NCBI GenBank assembly: GCA_943787745.1
Contig: CALSNJ010000007.1
Coordinates: 124,001-188,000 of the forward strand
Direction of reading: 5' to 3'
DNA length: 64,000 nt
Source of the DNA: an uncultured Alphaproteobacteria bacterium
GTDB taxonomy: Bacteria > Pseudomonadota > Alphaproteobacteria > UBA6615
In this document: positions 25,628 to 35,766 of the stretch, piece after piece
Layout of the letters: each line of letters opens with the position of its first letter
Position numbering within the stretch: position 1 is the stretch's first letter
Notes under the pieces: model-generated
What the model was told of the DNA's origin: nothing
Seen by the model: the letters and a program-made list of their open reading frames with translations, nothing else
Database searches by the model: none
Program-made: the position numbers and the translations under genes

Positions 25628-26518
25628 TTACCGGTCCTGTTTCGGTCCCATCGCATCGAGTTTTTCGCGGACCGAGAGAAGGTCGAGCCAGGCTGCGCGT
25701 TTCTGCGCCGGTTGGCGCAGGAGGTAGGCGGGGTGAAGCGTGGCCATGGCCGGGATTGAAGCAAGACCGGCGGCTTCGAGCGCAGGAGACGTGTAATCGT
25801 TCCATTTGCCGCGCAAACGGGTGATGCCTTCATTGCGATTCAGCAAGATTTTGGCAGAGGTGCCACCCAGGAACATCAGCGCGCGTGGGGCGACCAGTGC
25901 AATATGCCGCTCCAGAAACGGAAGGCATGCCGCTGTTTCAGCAGCCGTTGGCTGTCTGTTGCCCGGTGGGCGCCAGGGAAGAATGTTTGTGATGTAGACA
26001 TTGGTAGCGCGATCAAGGTTCACGAATCCGAGCATTCCCTCAAGCAACCGACCGCTCTCGCCGACAAAGGGTTCGCCTTGTCTGTCCTCGTCGCGGCCGG
26101 GGGCTTCGCCGATCAGCATCAGATCGGGTGTTACCGCGCCCTTCCCAAAAACAAGATTGGTGGCGGTGGTCTTCAGGGGGCAACCGTCAAAGGTTTCAAG
26201 GGCGGTGCGTAATGCCGCAAGGTCATTGCACGCGGCGGCTTGAATACGTGCGTCTTCGGTCACGGTGTCGGCCGCTGCCAGCGGTGCCACCGGCCGGGCG
26301 GCTGTCGCAGCGGGAGTTGGTGGGGGTGCGCCAGCCTGATTCGGGGGCGGCGCCGATTCCTGTGCAGCTGTGGCAGACTTTTTAGCTGCATCCGCTTTGG
26401 TTTTTGCGACTTCGGCGAATCTGTCGACGGCCTCGTTGAGGATTGCTTCATCGGCGCCGGCATCGATCTGCCAGCGCAATGCCGCAATCATTTCTGTGCG
26501 TTCGGCTGTCCCGTTCAT
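25628..26518 (-). CDS. Family 4-type uracil-DNA glycosylase
   Basis: A 296-residue glycosylase that removes uracil from DNA. Motif A is GEAPGRDED (138-145) and motif B HPAYLLR (262-268). The first ~95 residues are a charged and Pro/Ala-rich extension common in alphaproteobacterial members. Of the four cluster cysteines of the classical enzyme, only Cys113 (FDGCPLK) and Cys198 (TAACLPF) remain; the KCRPP position reads PWRPP here. I start it at [10 protein letters not shown] (26518); a frame extension upstream overlaps the divergent promoter region of the ETF-QO gene. Confidence 0.92.
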
Positions 26519-26647
26519 CTCAGTTCCACTTTCCTGGCACGGCATCGCATCCCAAATAGTGATGGGGTCTGGCGGCTGCTGGTTGTGCTTCGGCGTTGGG
26601 CATGGTTTTTTGAACTGAAATGCTACCGGTCTCAGGAGGTTCATAGC

Positions 26648-28321
26648 ATGAGCGAAGAAGCCGTCGAACGCGAGTCAATGTCGTATGATGTTGTGATAGT
26701 CGGTGCCGGGCCTTCGGGGCTCGCGGCGGCAATTCGCCTGAAGCAGATTGCAGCGGAAAATGAGCGCGAAATCGGCGTGTGTGTCCTCGAGAAAGGTTCC
26801 GAGGTCGGTGCTCATATTCTTTCCGGCGCCGTGCTGGAAACTCGCGCGCTCGATGAATTGATTCCGGACTGGCGCGAGATGGATGCGCCCGTGACGACCG
26901 CGGTCAGTGATGAGAAGTTCCTGTTTCTCCGCGAATCCACGGCAACCTCTGTGCCGACGTCGATCCTCCCACCGTCGCTGAAGAACCACGGCAACTACAT
27001 CATTTCTCTCGGAAATCTGTGCCGTTGGCTCGGAGAGCAGGCCGAGGCTCTGGGGGTGGAAATTTATCCCGGATTCGCGGCTTCTGAAGTGCTGTTTGAC
27101 TCTGACGGACGGGTGCGCGGTGTCGCCACCGGAGATATGGGAATTGATGCCGACGGAGAACCGACTGCCAATCACACACCGGGTATCGAACTGCATGCGA
27201 CATACACGTTTTTTGCTGAAGGATGCCGGGGCCAACTGGGGCGTCAGCTGATGGACCATTTTGATTTACGCACGGAAAGCGAAGATCAAACTTACGGGAT
27301 CGGAATCAAGGAGCTCTGGCAGGTCGCACCCGATCATCATCAGCAGGGTCTGGTTGTCCACAGCGCGGGTTGGCCGCTCAGTTCTGACACATATGGTGGT
27401 TCGTTCCTCTACCATCTGGAGGACAATCAGGTGGCTGTCGGCTACGTGATCGGTCTCGACTACAAGAATCCCTATCTCTCGCCGTTTGAAGAGTTTCAAC
27501 GATTTAAGACCCACCCTGCAATCCGGCCCACTTTTGAAGGGGGCAAGCGTATTTCCTATGGTGCGCGGGCGCTGAACGAGGGTGGCGTGCAGTCTTTGCC
27601 GAAGCTGGCTTTCCCGGGGGGTGTTTTGATTGGCTGCGAGGCGGGGACGCTTAATGTGCCGAAAATCAAAGGCACGCATACGGCAATGAAGTCCGGCATG
27701 TTGGCCGCGGAATCGGCGGCGGCAGCCATCATGAATAGCCCAGAGGGGGAAACTCCTGTTTCTTTGCTGGATGGTTTTGTTGGGGCGTTTCGCGAGTCGT
27801 GGGCTTATCAGGAACTTTGGCGCGCACGTAATTTTCGACCGGCCTTCAAATATGGCCTGATGTTGGGGACGCTGCTGTCGGGCCTGGATCAGGTGTTGTT
27901 GCGGGGGCGGGCGCCTTGGACACTCAAACATGGTCATTCCGATCACGAAGCTCTGGACACAAAGGACAAGCACGCGCCCATCGATTATCCCAAGCCTGAT
28001 GGTGAGGTGACATTCGACCGCTTGTCATCGGTGTACATCTCGAACACGAACCATGAAGAGAATCAGCCGCCGCACCTGACGCTCAAGGATGCGAGCGTGC
28101 CGATCACGGTGAATCTCGAGAACTACGATGCGCCCGAGCAACGCTACTGCCCGGCACAGGTTTATGAGATTATCCGGGATGACGACGGATCGAATCCCCG
28201 CCTGCAGATCAATGCGCAGAACTGCGTCCATTGCAAAACCTGCGATATCAAGGACCCCACACAGAATATCGTCTGGGTCGCACCTGAGGGTGGCGGTGGG
28301 CCGAATTATCCCAATATGTAG
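26648..28321 (+). CDS. Electron transfer flavoprotein-ubiquinone oxidoreductase
   Basis: A 557-residue inner-membrane enzyme that passes electrons from ETF to ubiquinone. It has an N-terminal FAD fold ([17 protein letters not shown]), the ubiquinone-binding region, and a C-terminal 4Fe-4S domain with [18 protein letters not shown]. The ATG at 26648 has AGGAGGT eight bases upstream; a much longer frame upstream is antisense to the uracil glycosylase gene. Genes for ETF subunits and acyl-CoA dehydrogenases are not in the window. Confidence 0.95.
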
Positions 28322-28416: not shown

Positions 28417-30192
28417 ATGAGTGCCATGACCAGCCTGACGACAGTTTTATGTGCCGCAGTGTTATCGGGTTCGACACTTGCCTGGGGATTGTCGCTTCCG
28501 GCACATGCTGCACCGTCAGACCTCGAAGGCGTGCCGGGGCGACAGGCCGATCTTGCAGGGCTGACTCTTACGCTCGGTGAGACAACAGCCGGGCGTTATC
28601 TCGCCGCCCGCCATGCAGAGATTACGGGTGACCTTTTGGTCGCTGCGGATCTGACCTCACAAATCATTTCGGAAGTCCCCGACTCCGCGAGTGTTCGTCG
28701 TCGGGCGCAGCTGTTGATGATCAGTGCCGGGCGTTATGACAAAGCGGCCGATCTGGCGCAGGGCGTTCTGGAATCAAACCCCGGAGATCCGCTCGCGACC
28801 TACACGCTGTATGTCGATGCGATGCGTGCGGCGCGTTTTGAGGAGGCTTACGAACGTGCGGCCAGCGTCACGGTGGCAGGCGTCAATGGGATATTGGTGC
28901 CTTTGCTCAAGGCATGGGCGCGCGCGGGTCAGGACCGGACTGACGACGCGCTGCTCGAATTAGACAGTTTGGCCGGTGAGCAGGGGTTGGGTGCGATTGC
29001 CGGGCTTCATCAGGCGTTGATCGCAGACATCGGTGGCGATATCGGACGCGCCGACGCTGCGTTCCGCCTGGCGCTTGAGAAGTCGGGCGACCGCCCTTCG
29101 ATTCAGCTTGTGGATTCCTTTGCGCGTTTTCTTGTGCGGCAGGAAAACACCGAGGAGGCGCAGGCTCTTGTAAAGAAGTTCTCGGAACAGAATACGGCGA
29201 CTCTGCTTATCGAACCGGCGCAAAAAATTGTTGCGGGTCAACAGGAGCCCACGCGTGTCATTGCGGATGTTCAGCAAGGTGGTGCCGAAGTCTTTCGCAA
29301 TATTTCGGGGCTTCTTAATCGCGAGCGGCTGCGGACGGAAGCTTTGATGTTTATTCGGCTTTCCCTTGGGCTGGAGCCGCACAATCCGACGGCATTGTTC
29401 TCTCTCGGTCAGTTGCTGGAGCGACGTTCCCGCGATGATCTGGCGATTGATATCTATCGTCAGATAAATTCAGCGACACCCTATAGCTGGTACGCACGGT
29501 TAAGCGTGGCGGACGCACTGCATGGTCTGGAACAGAGTGATGAAGCCATTTCGATCCTGCGCGATATGGTTGATGAACGCACAGATCGCTCCGATGCAGT
29601 GCAGGCGCTTGCAGACATATATCGGATCGAAGAGCGTTATCCGGAATCTGTTGATGCCTACGACCTTGCTTATGAGCGTGAAGGTGGCAATGCGGACTGG
29701 CGGCTGTATTACACACGCGGTATCGCGCTGGAGCGCGCTAAAATATGGGACCGTGCGGAGAAGGATTTTCTTAAAGCACTCGACCTGGAGCCCGATCAGC
29801 CTCTTGTCCTGAACTATCTTGGTTATAGCTGGGTGGAGCTGGGCATCCAGCTCGAACGCGCCAAGACCATGATTGAAACCGCCGTCGCCAAACGGCCCGA
29901 GGATGGCTACATCACCGATTCACTCGGTTGGGTGCTTTATCGGCTGGGTGACTATCCGGCCGCTGTGGGTCATCTCGAACGTGCTGTAGAACTGGAGCCG
30001 GGTGATCCGGTCATCAATGATCACCTTGGCGATGCTTACTGGATCGTCGGGCGTAAGAACGAGGCAAGGTTTCAGTGGATACGCGCCCTGTCCCTGGAGC
30101 CGAGCGCAGAGGATGAAGCCGAGATTCGTTTGAAGCTTGAGGGGAAAAAAGAACCAACGCCGCAGCCGCCCGGAAAAAATCGTGACATCTAG
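28417..30192 (+). CDS. Exported tetratricopeptide-repeat protein
   Basis: A 591-residue protein with a signal peptide (cleavage likely near LPAHAAPSD) and TPR repeats through most of its length. The clearest repeats are in the C-terminal half (LFSLGQLLERRSRDDLAIDI, LGWVLYRLGDYPAAVGHLER, LGDAYWIVGRKNEARFQWIR). It probably serves as a periplasmic or outer-membrane-facing scaffold. It lies 15 bases upstream of ispE, an arrangement often seen in alphaproteobacteria, but no functional link is known. Confidence 0.85.
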   Translation: MSAMTSLTTVLCAAVLSGSTLAWGLSLPAHAAPSDLEGVPGRQADLAGLTLTLGETTAGRYLAARHAEITGDLLVAADLTSQIISEVPDSASVRRRAQLLMISAGRYDKAADLAQGVLESNPGDPLATYTLYVDAMRAARFEEAYERAASVTVAGVNGILVPLLKAWARAGQDRTDDALLELDSLAGEQGLGAIAGLHQALIADIGGDIGRADAAFRLALEKSGDRPSIQLVDSFARFLVRQENTEEAQALVKKFSEQNTATLLIEPAQKIVAGQQEPTRVIADVQQGGAEVFRNISGLLNRERLRTEALMFIRLSLGLEPHNPTALFSLGQLLERRSRDDLAIDIYRQINSATPYSWYARLSVADALHGLEQSDEAISILRDMVDERTDRSDAVQALADIYRIEERYPESVDAYDLAYEREGGNADWRLYYTRGIALERAKIWDRAEKDFLKALDLEPDQPLVLNYLGYSWVELGIQLERAKTMIETAVAKRPEDGYITDSLGWVLYRLGDYPAAVGHLERAVELEPGDPVINDHLGDAYWIVGRKNEARFQWIRALSLEPSAEDEAEIRLKLEGKKEPTPQPPGKNRDI

Positions 30193-30206: not shown

Positions 30207-31100
30207 GTGAACACCAGGCCTGAAGAATCTGCTTTGCATGAGCGTGCCCCTGCAAAGGTGAATCTTTTCCTGCATGTTGCTGGTCGTCGCGATGACGGCT
30301 TTCACGATCTCGAAAGCCTGGTTGTGTTCACGGCATTCGGGGACGAGGTCAGCATTTCACCGTCTTCGGCGCTGACCCTCGAACGGAGCGGCCCCTTTGC
30401 GGGCGACCTGCCCGATAATCCCGAAGACGATCTGTGTTTGCGTGCGGCGACCAAATTGGCAAAGGCATTTGGACGCGCGCCGACTGCTCGTATCTTCCTG
30501 ATAAAGAATATTCCTGTTGCGTCGGGCGTGGGTGGGGGGTCTTCAGATGCCGCCGCCGTGCTGCGTGGCTTATGCCGGCTATGGGGTTTGGATGTCCGCG
30601 ATCCACGTGTGATTGGCATTGCCGAAGATCTTGGGGCGGACGTGCCTGTTTGTCTGAACGGCGCAGCTGCCTGCATTTCGGGTATCGGAGACGTTGTCGA
30701 CCCGCTTGTACAGGATCCGGCGTTTCACATGTTGCTGGTCAATCCGAACGAGGCGTTGGCCACGGCCGAGGTGTTTGGGGCGTTTGCGGGTGGAACCGGG
30801 GTCACCGATGGGCTCGTTGATTCTGTGTGCGCGCAGGACTCCGGGACATTGCTGGAAACCATTTCTGCCAGCCGCAACGATCTTGCTGTCGCCGCGCGGG
30901 AATTGTGTCCGGTTGTTGAATCGGTTTTGCGCGCATTGGAGCAAAGTCCGGGCTGCACCCTTGCGCGAATGAGCGGAAGCGGTGCGACCTGTTTTGGCAT
31001 TTTTCCAAATGCCAAAAGCTGCCAGCGTGCCGGCGCGGTCATTTCCAAAGCGCATCAGGCATGGTGGGTGTGTCCCACCAGAACTGCCTCGGCTATCTGA
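30207..31100 (+). CDS. ispE: 4-diphosphocytidyl-2-C-methyl-D-erythritol kinase
   Basis: A 297-residue GHMP kinase of the MEP isoprenoid pathway. It begins with APAKVNLFLHVAGRRDDGFHDLESLV, contains the ATP-binding IPVASGVGGGSSDAAAVL and ends with the C-terminal MSGSGATCFGIF motif. The start is a GTG. It is co-directional with the TPR gene and convergent with the PodJ-like gene, with only 17 bases between the two stops. The pathway's last enzyme, IspH, is encoded at 2385-3329. Confidence 0.96.
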   Translation: MNTRPEESALHERAPAKVNLFLHVAGRRDDGFHDLESLVVFTAFGDEVSISPSSALTLERSGPFAGDLPDNPEDDLCLRAATKLAKAFGRAPTARIFLIKNIPVASGVGGGSSDAAAVLRGLCRLWGLDVRDPRVIGIAEDLGADVPVCLNGAAACISGIGDVVDPLVQDPAFHMLLVNPNEALATAEVFGAFAGGTGVTDGLVDSVCAQDSGTLLETISASRNDLAVAARELCPVVESVLRALEQSPGCTLARMSGSGATCFGIFPNAKSCQRAGAVISKAHQAWWVCPTRTASAI

Positions 31101-31117: not shown

Positions 31118-33115
31118 CTAGCGGTCACCAGCAATCTGACGCAGGTGGTTCAGCAGGTTCAGGCTTGGCTCACCATCAACCCGCAGGCCCAACTCGCGCT
31201 GATAATTGCGAATCGCATCCCGGGTCTTGTTGCCGATTGCGCCGTCCGGCCGACCGGTGTCGAAACCCAGTTGGTTCAGCAATGTCTGCATGGCGTTGAT
31301 CTGATCCCGACTGACAGTTTCCGTATTGGCCGCCGTCGAAACGAAAGGCGCGGATGCGGGTGTGACTTCAGAATTGGTTGTTGTCGGTGTGACGCGCATG
31401 GGTGCGGGGGTCGATGTGGACGATTTGGGGGCGCGTGGAATCGTCTGACCAATAAAATGGGAGACCCGAGCGTTGACGCCAGAACGTTCTTCGGGCGTCA
31501 GTTGCGCGGCAATTTTCTCGGAACGCTCTGAAGCCTTGGCGACCCCGTTCGCATCGGCGATTTGGTACCAGTAATAGGCGTCAACAAGACTCTCACGGGA
31601 TGCAGGCGATGTTGCGAGGACGTTGCCCAGAGAGAACTGTGCTTCGGCCACATTTGATTCTGCCGCCAGGCGCAACCACTTCAGGGCTTCATCTGGATTG
31701 CGTGTGATGCCGCGACCCGAGGCGTAGGCTGCGGCAACAGCCATTTGGGCGCGCCCATGCCCGTTTTCAGCAGCACTGTGGAACCAGATCAGTGCCTCAG
31801 TCGGGTCAGGCTCGACACCGCGGCCGGATTCATAGAGGACGCCGAGATTGTATTGGGCGTTGGTCATGTCCTGCGCGGCGGCCTTGCGCAGCCAGAACGC
31901 AGCCTCGCCGTAATCCTGCGCAACGCCGCGTCCAACCAGATAGCGTACGCCAAGCTCATTTTGTGCAGTCGCGACGCCGGTGGAAGCGTCCTCACGTAGG
32001 GCATCGAGCTCTGCATTGCCGGATGCATTCTTTGCAATGGCGTCTGCCGCGCCGGTGGTGTCCAGCTCCGGATTTGGTTCGTCGCCCTTTGGAGCTAACG
32101 TCTGAGCGGGCGGGGGGGCTGGAATCGGCGGCGTTGGCACCACTGAAGGTGCTGATGCTGGCGTGGGTGGCTTTGGTGCAGCAGGCTGTGCATCCACCGG
32201 CGCCGGTGCAGCAAGCTGTGCTTCTGGCGATGACGTTGCTTCCGGTCGGGTCGGTTGGGCCGGGGTCTGGGATTTCGCGCTATCGACTGCTGACTCGACA
32301 CCCGTGGTCAGGGATTTGCGCATCTCTGGTGATAAAAACTCGAACCATGCAACAGCGGCGACGCCGGCCACCGCGGCCAGAAGAATGGCCAGAACGAACA
32401 CAAGTGGTGCTTTGCTGGATCGGCGGGGTGGCCGCCTTGGCATGAAGGGGTCCCTTGAGGGCGTGTGCAAGGCAGCGTTCTGACGATGGGTTCCATCATC
32501 GAACAATCCCGTCAACTCGGACTTGAGCGCGGCGTCCGCGGCGTGAATATCTGCTTCCGTGATGTTGCCGGGGTCGATCTTGGCGCCAGCTTCGGCGGCG
32601 CGTGAACGTGCTTCGGATGCATCATCGGGTACATCTTCAGGTTTCGGGTCGATCGGGTGATGAACTGCCTCAGCCGTGTCCGGCTCATCCACTGGTCCGT
32701 GCTCGGGCGCTGGGTCTTGCACAGGCTCTTCTGCTTCTGCAGGTGATGCGTCTGATTGTGTTTCCGAGTTGGGTTCGCTTGGCGCATTGCGCTGATTGTG
32801 CTCGAGCCGTTCCAGCCGCGCACCAAGCTCTGATATCGAATCACGGACCGGGCCGAGCTGTTCGGTAATTCGATCGGCGTGGTCGCCAACACGCACTTCG
32901 AGCGCCTGAAGGATGGTCACGATATCGAGTTCGCTGACCTCGTCAGGTGGCGCTGCCGTGTTTGTTTCGTCTTTGGATTCGTCGTCGCCGCTCATGAGTA
33001 TCGCCTGGTCAATCCACACGCCGATTGGCAGGTCGGAGTTCTGTGCCGCCGCCTTCGCAGCTTCGCGCGCTTCGGGGCTGACTCCTTTGACGCTCCACAA
33101 TTTGCCGCGGGCCAT
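31118..33115 (-). CDS. PodJ-like polar factor: shared N-module, coiled coil, membrane span, Sel1 repeats, peptidoglycan-binding domain
   Basis: A 665-residue protein. Residues 6-40 are a module shared with two neighbours (LWSVKGVSPEAREAAK onward). Residues 64-108 are a coiled coil, 110-230 acidic and disordered-looking, 237-257 a membrane span (PLVFVLAILLAAVAGVAAVA), 280-350 Pro/Ala-rich, about 380-530 Sel1-type repeats with the GRGV pattern, and about 605-660 a peptidoglycan-binding domain (LLNQLGFDTGRPDGAIG). The order and topology match alphaproteobacterial PodJ, which sets up the cell pole, though the cytoplasmic coil is far shorter. Polar function is inferred. It is the last of three related minus-strand genes. 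Confidence 0.82.
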   Translation of the reverse strand: MARGKLWSVKGVSPEAREAAKAAAQNSDLPIGVWIDQAILMSGDDESKDETNTAAPPDEVSELDIVTILQALEVRVGDHADRITEQLGPVRDSISELGARLERLEHNQRNAPSEPNSETQSDASPAEAEEPVQDPAPEHGPVDEPDTAEAVHHPIDPKPEDVPDDASEARSRAAEAGAKIDPGNITEADIHAADAALKSELTGLFDDGTHRQNAALHTPSRDPFMPRRPPRRSSKAPLVFVLAILLAAVAGVAAVAWFEFLSPEMRKSLTTGVESAVDSAKSQTPAQPTRPEATSSPEAQLAAPAPVDAQPAAPKPPTPASAPSVVPTPPIPAPPPAQTLAPKGDEPNPELDTTGAADAIAKNASGNAELDALREDASTGVATAQNELGVRYLVGRGVAQDYGEAAFWLRKAAAQDMTNAQYNLGVLYESGRGVEPDPTEALIWFHSAAENGHGRAQMAVAAAYASGRGITRNPDEALKWLRLAAESNVAEAQFSLGNVLATSPASRESLVDAYYWYQIADANGVAKASERSEKIAAQLTPEERSGVNARVSHFIGQTIPRAPKSSTSTPAPMRVTPTTTNSEVTPASAPFVSTAANTETVSRDQINAMQTLLNQLGFDTGRPDGAIGNKTRDAIRNYQRELGLRVDGEPSLNLLNHLRQIAGDR

Positions 33116-33225
33116 CTGTCTGTCCAGTCATTCCTTGAGTGTCATTCCTGACTGCGTGTCACGAGTTCAAAAGCGTCACGACAACAAGCCGAATGTCTCC
33201 GCGCAAACAACTGAATCTTGCACGA

Positions 33226-33915
33226 TTAGTCACGACCAAACAGCTTACCTATAACGCCACTTTTGGAAGACGTCTTGCTTGGTCGCGCACCAGAATCCTT
33301 TCCCGGGTCTTCCATGCGATCAAGCCGTTCAGAGAGTCGCATCATCGCACGTTCAACAGGCGCGGAAGACCCTCCGGAATTTGTTTTAATTTCCTCGATC
33401 TGTTCGCTCAGATCACCAACCCGGTCGGAGATTGGCTTGAGTATGTCTGACGTGCGCTGTTCGGATTCTTCGATCCGAGATGCCAGCTTTTGTATGCTTG
33501 CCAGAACTGCTTCCGGGGTCAGTGCCGGCGGGCCACCAGGGCCCGGTGCGGGCTGTTGCGGTGGCGGCGCGTACTGCGGATTATATTGCGGCGGCTGAGG
33601 CTGTTGCTCTGGCTGTTGTTGTGCTGGCTGGGGCTGCTGTTGGGGCTGCTGCGGGGGTGGGGACTGTGCTGTATTCGCAGCGGAGTTGGCGTCTGCCGGC
33701 TGACCGGTGAAGCTGAATGATGGTGTCCCTGCGGGCGCGGCCTGACGGTCATCTTCTGAGCCACGCTTTGAGCGCAACTCTTCTGATGCGGCAGCAAGAA
33801 TCGTTTGGGTGAGCCAGCGACCGACATTCACGCCCTGACGACGTGCAGCGATTTTGGCCGCCTCACGCGCTTCGGGTGCTACGCCCTTAACGCTCCAGGG
33901 TGAAGTGTTCGCCAT
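33226..33915 (-). CDS. Soluble PodJ-module protein with Pro/Gln-rich linker and coiled coil
   Basis: A 229-residue protein. Residues 6-40 match the N-terminal module of the neighbouring PodJ-like protein almost residue for residue (PWSVKGVAPEAREAAKIAAR). Residues 86-131 are nearly all Pro and Gln, 133-203 form a coiled coil with an ILKPISDRVGDLSEQIEEI pattern that resembles the coiled coil of the PodJ-like protein, and the tail is basic. No membrane span or signal peptide is seen, so it should be cytoplasmic. I do not know a named family beyond the N-module. It sits 110 bases upstream of the PodJ-like gene on the same strand. Confidence 0.75.
   Translation of the reverse strand: MANTSPWSVKGVAPEAREAAKIAARRQGVNVGRWLTQTILAAASEELRSKRGSEDDRQAAPAGTPSFSFTGQPADANSAANTAQSPPPQQPQQQPQPAQQQPEQQPQPPQYNPQYAPPPQQPAPGPGGPPALTPEAVLASIQKLASRIEESEQRTSDILKPISDRVGDLSEQIEEIKTNSGGSSAPVERAMMRLSERLDRMEDPGKDSGARPSKTSSKSGVIGKLFGRD
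33523..33660 (-). repeat. Low-complexity Pro/Gln-coding tract
   Basis: CAG/CCG-type codons repeat irregularly across about 138 bases and encode residues 86-131 of the soluble PodJ-module protein. The repeat is imperfect and in frame, so it looks like a disordered linker rather than a satellite or CRISPR. Confidence 0.8.
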
Positions 33916-34251
33916 CAGATAAACCGTACGTCCAAAAGTCTGCCTTCGTATGACCGGGTTTTAAGGCCTAGTACTACCGTTTGTGTCCAGGTGAATGTCT
34001 GTATGGACCGATATTCGAGCCAAAATCATCCGACTAAACTGTCATAGCGGTATACATGCACTTTTTTTGTGGTTTGCAAACATCAAATGTGAGCAGCGTT
34101 ACAACAGAATCAAGGACTTGTAGAGAGTTTTAGGCATCGGCCAAGACCGGAGTAGGCCTCACAGAGCATTGACGCTGGCCGTTCTGGAACCTTCCGAACC
34201 GTGTTTTGAAACACAGTATGGCGTGTACTACTGAGTTGTATGGCTTGGTAT
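33916..34251. other. 336-base AT-richer intergenic region between two PodJ-module genes
   Basis: No open frame here looks like a gene. The region is poorer in GC than its surroundings, holds a T7 run near 34065 and a short inverted repeat (GTGTTT-TG-AAACAC, 34201-34214). It must contain the promoter of the gene at 33226-33915 and the end of the one at 34252-34584. I see no convincing promoter pair or terminator. Confidence 0.5.
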
Positions 34252-34584
34252 TTAGTCAGTATTATCAATGTCTTCCAAGTCATACAGGCGTTGAGAAATT
34301 TGCGCGAGGGCAGTCCTGTAAGACTCGATTTCCTGGGTGGAATACCGCTCTGCTTCCGAGAGAGTTTTATCCATTCGATGCAGGACCGCACTGGCCGTAC
34401 CGGTATGACCGGGGTTATCCGGTGATGCAGGGGTACCTGAGTTGTTTTGGGCGGCGGCTAGGAGAATGCGATCGTTAAGCCATTGGCCAATCGTCTGGTG
34501 ATTCTCAGTAGCTGCAATCCGAACGGCTTTACGTGCTTCGTCGCTGATGCCGATCAGGCTCCATGGCATACGCGGATTGTCCAT
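34252..34584 (-). CDS. Small PodJ-module protein
   Basis: A 110-residue protein starting at MDNPRMPWSL (AAGGA about ten bases upstream; an upstream ATG at 34620 adds twelve codons). Residues 7-41 are the same module as in the next two genes downstream but more divergent (PWSLIGISDEARKAVRIAA). Residues 66-105 form a short amphipathic helix or coiled coil. No membrane span or signal is present. It is the smallest and most diverged of three related genes in a row and may be a truncated or simplified family member. Its function is unknown. Confidence 0.65.
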   Translation of the reverse strand: MDNPRMPWSLIGISDEARKAVRIAATENHQTIGQWLNDRILLAAAQNNSGTPASPDNPGHTGTASAVLHRMDKTLSEAERYSTQEIESYRTALAQISQRLYDLEDIDNTD

Positions 34585-34695
34585 TTGTATGGCGTCCTTG
34601 TGCGCAGTTTGATTCGGCAAGTATAGTCCCGCGAATCATACATTTATACCGAGCGACACGATCGTCGCCCACCCTGTAATTGTTGGAGTATCCAT

Positions 34696-35766
34696 ATGGC
34701 AAAGGACGTCGCTCTCATCACCGGTGTGACAGGTCAGGACGGTGCCTATCTGGCAGAGCTTCTGCTCGCCAAGGGGTATGAGGTTCATGGCGTGAAACGA
34801 CGCTCGTCCTCATTCAACACCGGTCGGGTGGACCATCTGTATCTCGACCCACATGAGAAAAACATTCAGTTCCATCTCCACTTCGGAGACATGACGGATG
34901 CCACCAATCTGATCCGCCTGATTCAGGAGGTGCAGCCGAATGAAATTTACAATCTTGCAGCACAAAGTCATGTGCAGGTCAGTTTTGAAACACCGGAATA
35001 CACAGCCAATTCCGATGCGCTTGGAACCCTTCGTTTGCTCGAAGCGATGCGTATTCTCAAGATGGAAGACAAGGCGAAGTTCTATCAGGCCTCGACGTCT
35101 GAATTGTATGGCAAGGTTCAGGAAACACCGCAGAGCGAGACCACGCCTTTCTATCCGCGCAGTCCTTATGCGGCAGCCAAAATTTATGCCTATTGGATCA
35201 CGGTGAACTATCGTGAGGCCTACAACATGCATGCTTCGAACGGCATCCTGTTCAACCACGAAAGCCCGATCCGGGGTGAGACATTCGTCACCCGAAAAAT
35301 CACCCGTGCCGTTGCGGCAATAGAGCTCGGGTTTCAGTCAAAACTGTTTCTGGGCAACATCGATGCCAAGCGCGATTGGGGGCATGCTCGAGACTATGTT
35401 GAGGGCATGTGGCGCATCTTGCAGCAGGACACTGCGGATGATTTTGTTCTCGCCACGGGCGAAACCCATGCGGTTCGCGAATTCGTGGAATTGTCCTTTG
35501 CCGAAATCGGGCGTGTTATCGAATGGCGTGGTTCGGGCGTCGATGAAGTTGGGGTCGACACGGCGACCGGTGACGAACTCGTTGCGATCGATCCGCGGTA
35601 TTTCCGGCCAACTGAAGTTGACCTTCTGCTGGGGGATCCGACCAAGGCAAAGAATGTTCTTGGTTGGGAGCACAGCACCCCGTTTCCGCAACTGGTCAAG
35701 GAGATGGTTGCGGCCGACCTTGAACTTCTGCGCAAGGATGGCGATATCCATCAAAGCTTCGATTAG
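34696..35766 (+). CDS. gmd: GDP-mannose 4,6-dehydratase
   Basis: A 356-residue short-chain dehydrogenase that converts GDP-mannose to GDP-4-keto-6-deoxymannose, precursor of fucose, rhamnose or perosamine in surface polysaccharides. The NADP motif [15 protein letters not shown], the active-site [10 protein letters not shown] (YxxxK) and [16 protein letters not shown] are typical. GGAG precedes the ATG. No partner gene for GDP-fucose or perosamine synthesis follows; a tRNA gene lies directly downstream. Confidence 0.96.

Follow-up and report, generated by a model that had tools for sequence, protein, structure and literature searches.

Organization of the locus

The window (the whole stretch of DNA analysed here, 64,000 nucleotides of contig CALSNJ010000007.1, assembly GCA_943787745.1, from an uncultured alphaproteobacterium) contains three consecutive genes, here called A, B and C. 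All are located on the minus strand in the transcription order A-B-C, with intergenic gaps of 336 bases (A-B) and 110 bases (B-C), and their products share an N-terminal module for which a ribbon-helix-helix (RHH) fold is predicted. The largest product resembles PodJ, a model polar scaffold protein by which the bacterial cell pole is organised. The features of the three genes are as follows.

34252..34584, minus strand: gene A, from ATG; 110-residue cytosolic protein with an RHH-like module and a short coiled coil
34595..34599, minus strand: AAGGA, Shine-Dalgarno-like, about 10 bases 5' of the ATG of A
34447..34584, minus strand: RHH-like N-terminal module of A, residues 1-46
34270..34389, minus strand: predicted coiled coil of A, about residues 66-105 (from the sequence; the coil profile matches the A proteins of relatives, not A of the window)
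33226..33915, minus strand: gene B, 229 residues; module, proline/glutamine-rich disordered linker, coiled coil, APVERAMMRLSERL helix and hydrophobic/basic tail
33775..33915, minus strand: RHH-like N-terminal module of B, residues 1-47
33517..33738, minus strand: proline/glutamine-rich linker of B, low model confidence, residues 60-133
33379..33516, minus strand: long helix/coiled coil of B, residues 134-179
33310..33363, minus strand: conserved APVERA helix of B, residues 185-202
33229..33261, minus strand: C-terminal tail SGVIGKLFGRD of B, putative likeness to MinD-type membrane targeting
31118..33115, minus strand: gene C, 665-residue PodJ-like membrane protein
32981..33115, minus strand: RHH-like N-terminal module of C, residues 1-45
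32801..32926, minus strand: coiled coil of C, about residues 64-105
32348..32404, minus strand: predicted membrane span of C (hydrophobic), about residues 238-256
31646..31972, minus strand: three Sel1 repeats of C, about residues 382-490 (Pfam, E 5.5e-31)
31142..31309, minus strand: PG_binding_1 domain of C, residues 603-658 (Pfam, E 2.7e-14)

The reading frames of A, B and C are intact and under purifying selection, with a ratio of non-synonymous to synonymous polymorphism (pN/pS) of 0.22-0.52 across three congeneric genomes. Two congeneric genomes retain orthologues of all three genes, with B the most conserved (73-79% identity); the A orthologues of G003 and G004 share the ATG start. In G003 the C gene (L058 3942-5019) is frame-shifted after about 140 codons, which reflects either an assembly error or a real loss; that gene apart, the frames and the selection led to the rejection of broken-frame fragments as an explanation, and intact A and B genes are conserved in many families. 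Directly N-terminal of the membrane span, C carries the motif ADxALKSxLxGLFDDGxH (32486-32551), which is kept in G003, G004 and G009 and may be a binding motif.

The shared N-terminal module and its predicted fold

An earlier sequence-only reading of this DNA had noted a block of 35 residues common to the three proteins. The block is real, and the shared unit extends beyond it to about 45 residues with 14 invariant alignment columns (the start M, W7, S8, G11, E15, A16, R17, A19, A23, A24, G32, W34, I39 and L40). When the 50-residue N-terminus of B was compared with the whole 3.27-Mb genome, exactly A, B and C were recovered (E 8e-28, 2e-10 and 2.5e-7); the next match, at E 0.04, contains a stop. 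A generic helix pattern as the source of the similarity was rejected on the basis of these three good matches, the specificity of the profile and the negative controls of the coil profile described below. A scan of named genomes using B alone as query gave no match, no Pfam or NCBIfam model reached threshold on the module, and its profile found no credible match among PDB sequences.

When 93 members were scanned singly, the sub-threshold Pfam matches were mainly to RHH families: NikA-like (10), HicB (7), TacA1 (5), Rv0623-like (3), FitA (3) and DUF6290 (3). Weak NCBIfam matches were to RelB, YlcI/YnfO, MobA and VapB, and ten roughly reversed module controls (an approximate control) gave no RHH match. 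In an AlphaFold2 model of the module of B (92-row alignment; predicted local distance difference test score 86), helices occupy residues 14-27 and 31-53. The leading PDB fold matches (Foldseek, VIA-align) were almost all RHH proteins: Arc, TacA, VapB, NikA, PutA, FitA, ParG, MatP and CopG. Two points weigh against this assignment: the RHH matches are individually weak (Foldseek E no better than 0.66, Z no higher than 6.5), and the monomer model forms no beta strand, which is expected where dimerisation completes the fold. The structure model, the weak profile matches and the fold matches, taken together, indicate that the module very probably adopts an RHH fold.

The RHH fold normally works as an intertwined dimer. 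Like known RHH proteins (Arc, CopG, the TacA/VapB antitoxins, NikA, ParG and MatP), the module has about 45 residues, in which a short strand-like segment is followed by a predicted helix A, turn and helix B; it differs from them in being fused to coiled coils and a membrane scaffold, and its strand is conserved as WSVKG. In a literature search with poor coverage of subscription papers, no report of an RHH domain at the N-terminus of PodJ was found, the sole joint mention concerning MatP; the literature surveyed counts the first ~45 residues of PodJ as belonging to its coiled-coil region. An RHH-like fold would provide a concrete dimerisation interface, possibly also a DNA interface, addressable by point mutation in Caulobacter.

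Distribution and conserved gene order

The module profile was searched against 288 alphaproteobacterial genomes; 40 regions were fetched and 80 loci from a second collection were added. Matches were obtained in 77 of the 288 genomes, and 27 of these 77, from 16 families, carry two or more adjacent module genes. None of the genomes searched has module genes at two separate places. A typical array consists of A (57-150 residues), B (about 130-320 residues) and the PodJ-like C on a single strand, which is also the layout in the window. The order is fixed (A/P-B-C), and the array is convergent with ispE-TPR-ETF-QO wherever these are present; among the 46 loci examined, the TPR gene was found at 30, ispE at 23 and the ETF-QO gene at 15, always in opposite orientation. 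The corresponding genes of the window, together with the upstream neighbour, are the following.

30207..31100, plus strand: ispE (GHMP kinase), convergent neighbour, kept next to arrays
28417..30192, plus strand: TPR protein, conserved neighbour
26240..28321, plus strand: ETF-ubiquinone oxidoreductase (ETF-QO), conserved neighbour
34696..35766, plus strand: GDP-mannose 4,6-dehydratase, upstream neighbour, which adjoins the array in L073, L078 and L114 too

A-B-C is an old, conserved operon present across many families; the tandem arrangement is that of a conserved set and no local oddity. The divided operon was likewise unreported in the literature search. Outside the class nothing but small solitary module proteins was found; these occur in another class of the phylum (L201 3422-3901, and genomes G323, G326, G329, G332, G353, G361, G367 and G381).

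The coiled coil and the history of the paralogues

The sequence-only reading had also claimed a coiled coil shared by two of the proteins. A profile built on the coil of B matches A proteins with up to 38.7 bits (the full-length A of L060), C proteins with up to 26 bits and canonical PodJ with up to 17.7 bits; on the proteins of the window it gives just 9.0 bits for C and no match for A. Reversed sequences, shuffled sequences and 300 flanking open reading frames yielded no match. On these profile matches the coils are homologous via intermediates, which bears out the claim. In A, C and canonical PodJ the coil sits just behind the module, and module plus coil therefore form the ancestral unit. 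The A proteins of L062/L104-L107, L103 and L084 terminate in [ST]SIERAM, the motif of the APVERAM helix of B.

A 40-column module tree groups the modules of A, B, C and single-gene PodJ according to class, not genome, with 16 changes as compared with 66.8 for shuffled labels; support is good for only a few of its branches, and the label A is wrong for some truncated genes. The modules of canonical PodJ group with B (Shimodaira-Hasegawa-like approximate likelihood ratio test, 93). The clustering of the modules along paralogue lines makes the duplication ancient, and a recent tandem duplication was rejected. The three genes are thus what had been proposed, a paralogous family on one strand that includes PodJ and arose by duplication. 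Nothing was found in favour of the shared block being a generic pattern of helices, or else the product of a recent local duplication devoid of function; both are very improbable, given this class-wise clustering, a specific profile whose module is unique in the genome, purifying selection, and an order and synteny kept in many families.

Another explanation is that A, and perhaps B, are RHH transcription regulators of the adjoining podJ-like gene with antitoxin-like autoregulation. A is of RHH size (57-150 residues) and first in the operon, and the weak profile matches include antitoxin RHH families. However, the coiled coils of A and B are conserved and share ancestry with the coils of C and PodJ, the membrane protein C bears the same module, and the set is without a toxin gene, which makes this explanation improbable. 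A toxin-antitoxin system or defence island was rejected, since no toxin was found among the neighbours scanned and A, B and C gave no PADLOC match. PHROG matches were uninformative.

The C-terminal part of B

In the structure model of B, helices at residues 134-179 and 185-202 follow the low-confidence linker (residues 60-133). The profile of B shows an invariant APxERA helix and then a tail with many hydrophobic and basic residues. With its hydrophobic pairs and basic residues (e.g., GFLGRLFGR), the tail is suggestive of the membrane-targeting C-terminal helix of MinD; B has no MinD homology elsewhere. The helical hydrophobic moment of the tail is not above that of shuffled tails; a MinD-type amphipathic helix was therefore rejected, and contact of the tail with the membrane is retained as a suggestion. 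A and B had both been described as soluble in the sequence-only reading; this holds for A, which is cytosolic, and is uncertain for B, which may not be plainly soluble given its conserved hydrophobic/basic tail.

Comparison with canonical PodJ

As had been read from its sequence, C shows the layout of PodJ, with a single membrane span followed by Sel1 repeats and PG_binding_1. In BLASTP it matches PodJ of Caulobacter vibrioides at both ends (E 4e-21 and 2e-9), the second match covering residues 7-99, i.e. the N-terminal module and the coil. The module is also the extreme N-terminus of canonical Caulobacter PodJ, with the coil next to it. An envelope or cell-wall role without polarity, with C as a Sel1/peptidoglycan-binding sensor and A and B as its cytosolic effectors, would suit the periplasmic Sel1 repeats and PG_binding_1, Sel1 being a generic adaptor fold. 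It is nevertheless quite improbable in view of the match of C to PodJ at both ends and in overall architecture, and of the genomes searched, none of which contains both an array and a canonical PodJ.

C and PodJ of Caulobacter vibrioides/crescentus thus have in common the N-terminal module, the coil, the single span, the periplasmic Sel1 repeats and PG_binding_1. Caulobacter PodJ is, in contrast, encoded by a single gene at another locus and has about 640 cytoplasmic residues (CC1-6 plus a disordered region), whereas in the array C has about 237 such residues and A and B are separate proteins. C of the window accordingly has about 237 residues before the membrane, compared with 544-787 in single-gene PodJ, and lacks the long region with CC1-6 and the disordered region. 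The median cytoplasmic part is 221 residues in array C and 607 in single-gene PodJ, with four long exceptions (P 7e-13, a value uncorrected for relatedness).

In Caulobacter, residues 1-249 of PodJ, which include the module, are required for polar accumulation (PMC8980812), about eight copies of PodJ 1-601 assemble into one complex (PMC9684454), and CC4-6 is the PopZ-binding part (PMC10127582). A gene with a match to PF10691 (PopZ family) occurs in 18 of the 20 genomes tested, including that of the window. The assignment of PF10691 to PopZ is supported by Caulobacter having been its only control match.

Taken together, A, B and C probably, though by no means certainly, constitute a PodJ-type polar scaffold divided over several proteins. 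C would cross the inner membrane, its periplasmic Sel1 and peptidoglycan-binding domains tying it to the wall. A and B would be cytosolic, B possibly touching the membrane via its tail. The RHH modules would probably dimerise, each with its own kind or with another, and the coils would multimerise, so that A and B would build the cytoplasmic part of a hub on C; the counterpart in canonical single-gene PodJ is one long cytoplasmic chain. The earlier proposal of a membrane anchor with cytosolic partners is supported, and lineages that lack canonical PodJ would carry the divided form.

Some observations count against a simple version of the divided scaffold. The canonical long PodJ (e.g., Caulobacter vibrioides, L164) lies in another chromosomal neighbourhood, beside a metallophosphatase-like gene, the array lying by ispE; this different locus, and the grouping of the PodJ module with B, imply that array C is no simple orthologue of PodJ. 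In addition, the C proteins of L078 and L093 have lost the module and retain the coil, from which it follows that the module is dispensable in some subunits.

At these two loci (L078 6969-9167, L093 6426-8090) the PodJ-like C next to ispE starts at the coil, and the adjoining B keeps its module. B-like genes without a membrane part (L091 5369-6157, L094 5616-6176) were found at the locus that canonical PodJ occupies in other genomes.

Arrays with ParB domains

The array opens with a gene for a module-bearing protein with a ParB domain in G039, G219, G126, G030, G094 and locus L124, and the module is joined to ParB domains in the first gene at L061/L114, L068/L130, L069, L073, L088 and L124. 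ParB_N, HTH_ParB and ParB_C are present at L124 and L073, and ParB_N and HTH_ParB at L088; in the L124 protein, four partial helix-pair repeats precede ParB. The first gene of several arrays is thus like ParB partition proteins in its ParB_N and HTH_ParB (with ParB_C in two) and unlike them in the added N-terminal PodJ-type module(s) and the location in a podJ-like array. Of five genomes checked, four (G126, G219, G030 and G094) encode a second ParB outside the array, and in G039 the array ParB is the only one found. The tree of these proteins has long branches and is compatible with one or several origins.

These fusions bear on the possibility that the array is a chromosome tether, in which RHH modules bind DNA or pair with the module-ParB protein, the array fixes the replication origin to the pole and C is the envelope anchor. 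RHH is mainly a DNA-binding fold, and the fold matches include ParG and MatP, which act in segregation and chromosome organisation; the module is fused to ParB domains in several arrays, in four genomes besides a second ParB; and Agrobacterium depends on PodJ to keep its origins at the old pole (PMC9239152). On the other hand, the ParB form is missing from the window and from most arrays, the conserved strand WSVKG has a single basic residue, and chromatin immunoprecipitation of GFP-PodJ in Agrobacterium gave a signal at origins barely above background (PMC9239152). A tether as the function of the array is therefore rather unlikely.

A wider form of the divided scaffold can be put forward only tentatively. 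PodJ-class polar scaffolds may be built on an RHH domain, which in many alphaproteobacteria would be the common plug of a multi-protein hub; its subunits would be membrane, peripheral and cytosolic proteins, joined in some lineages by centromere-binding proteins of the ParB type, the chromosome being linked to the pole scaffold by RHH hetero-dimerisation. The ParB-bearing arrays suggest such a direct physical connection between scaffold and chromosome, and this would be relevant to origin holding by PodJ in Agrobacterium.

In G120:C60 and G145:C2, unlike the others, the array lies 16-18 kb from the ParB gene. A natural two-module protein is encoded in G039. G079 has a lone, weakly ParB-like protein flanked by a module at each end, and at L087 (3903-5150) a lone protein of 416 residues shows weak ParB similarity in the stretch separating two near-terminal modules.

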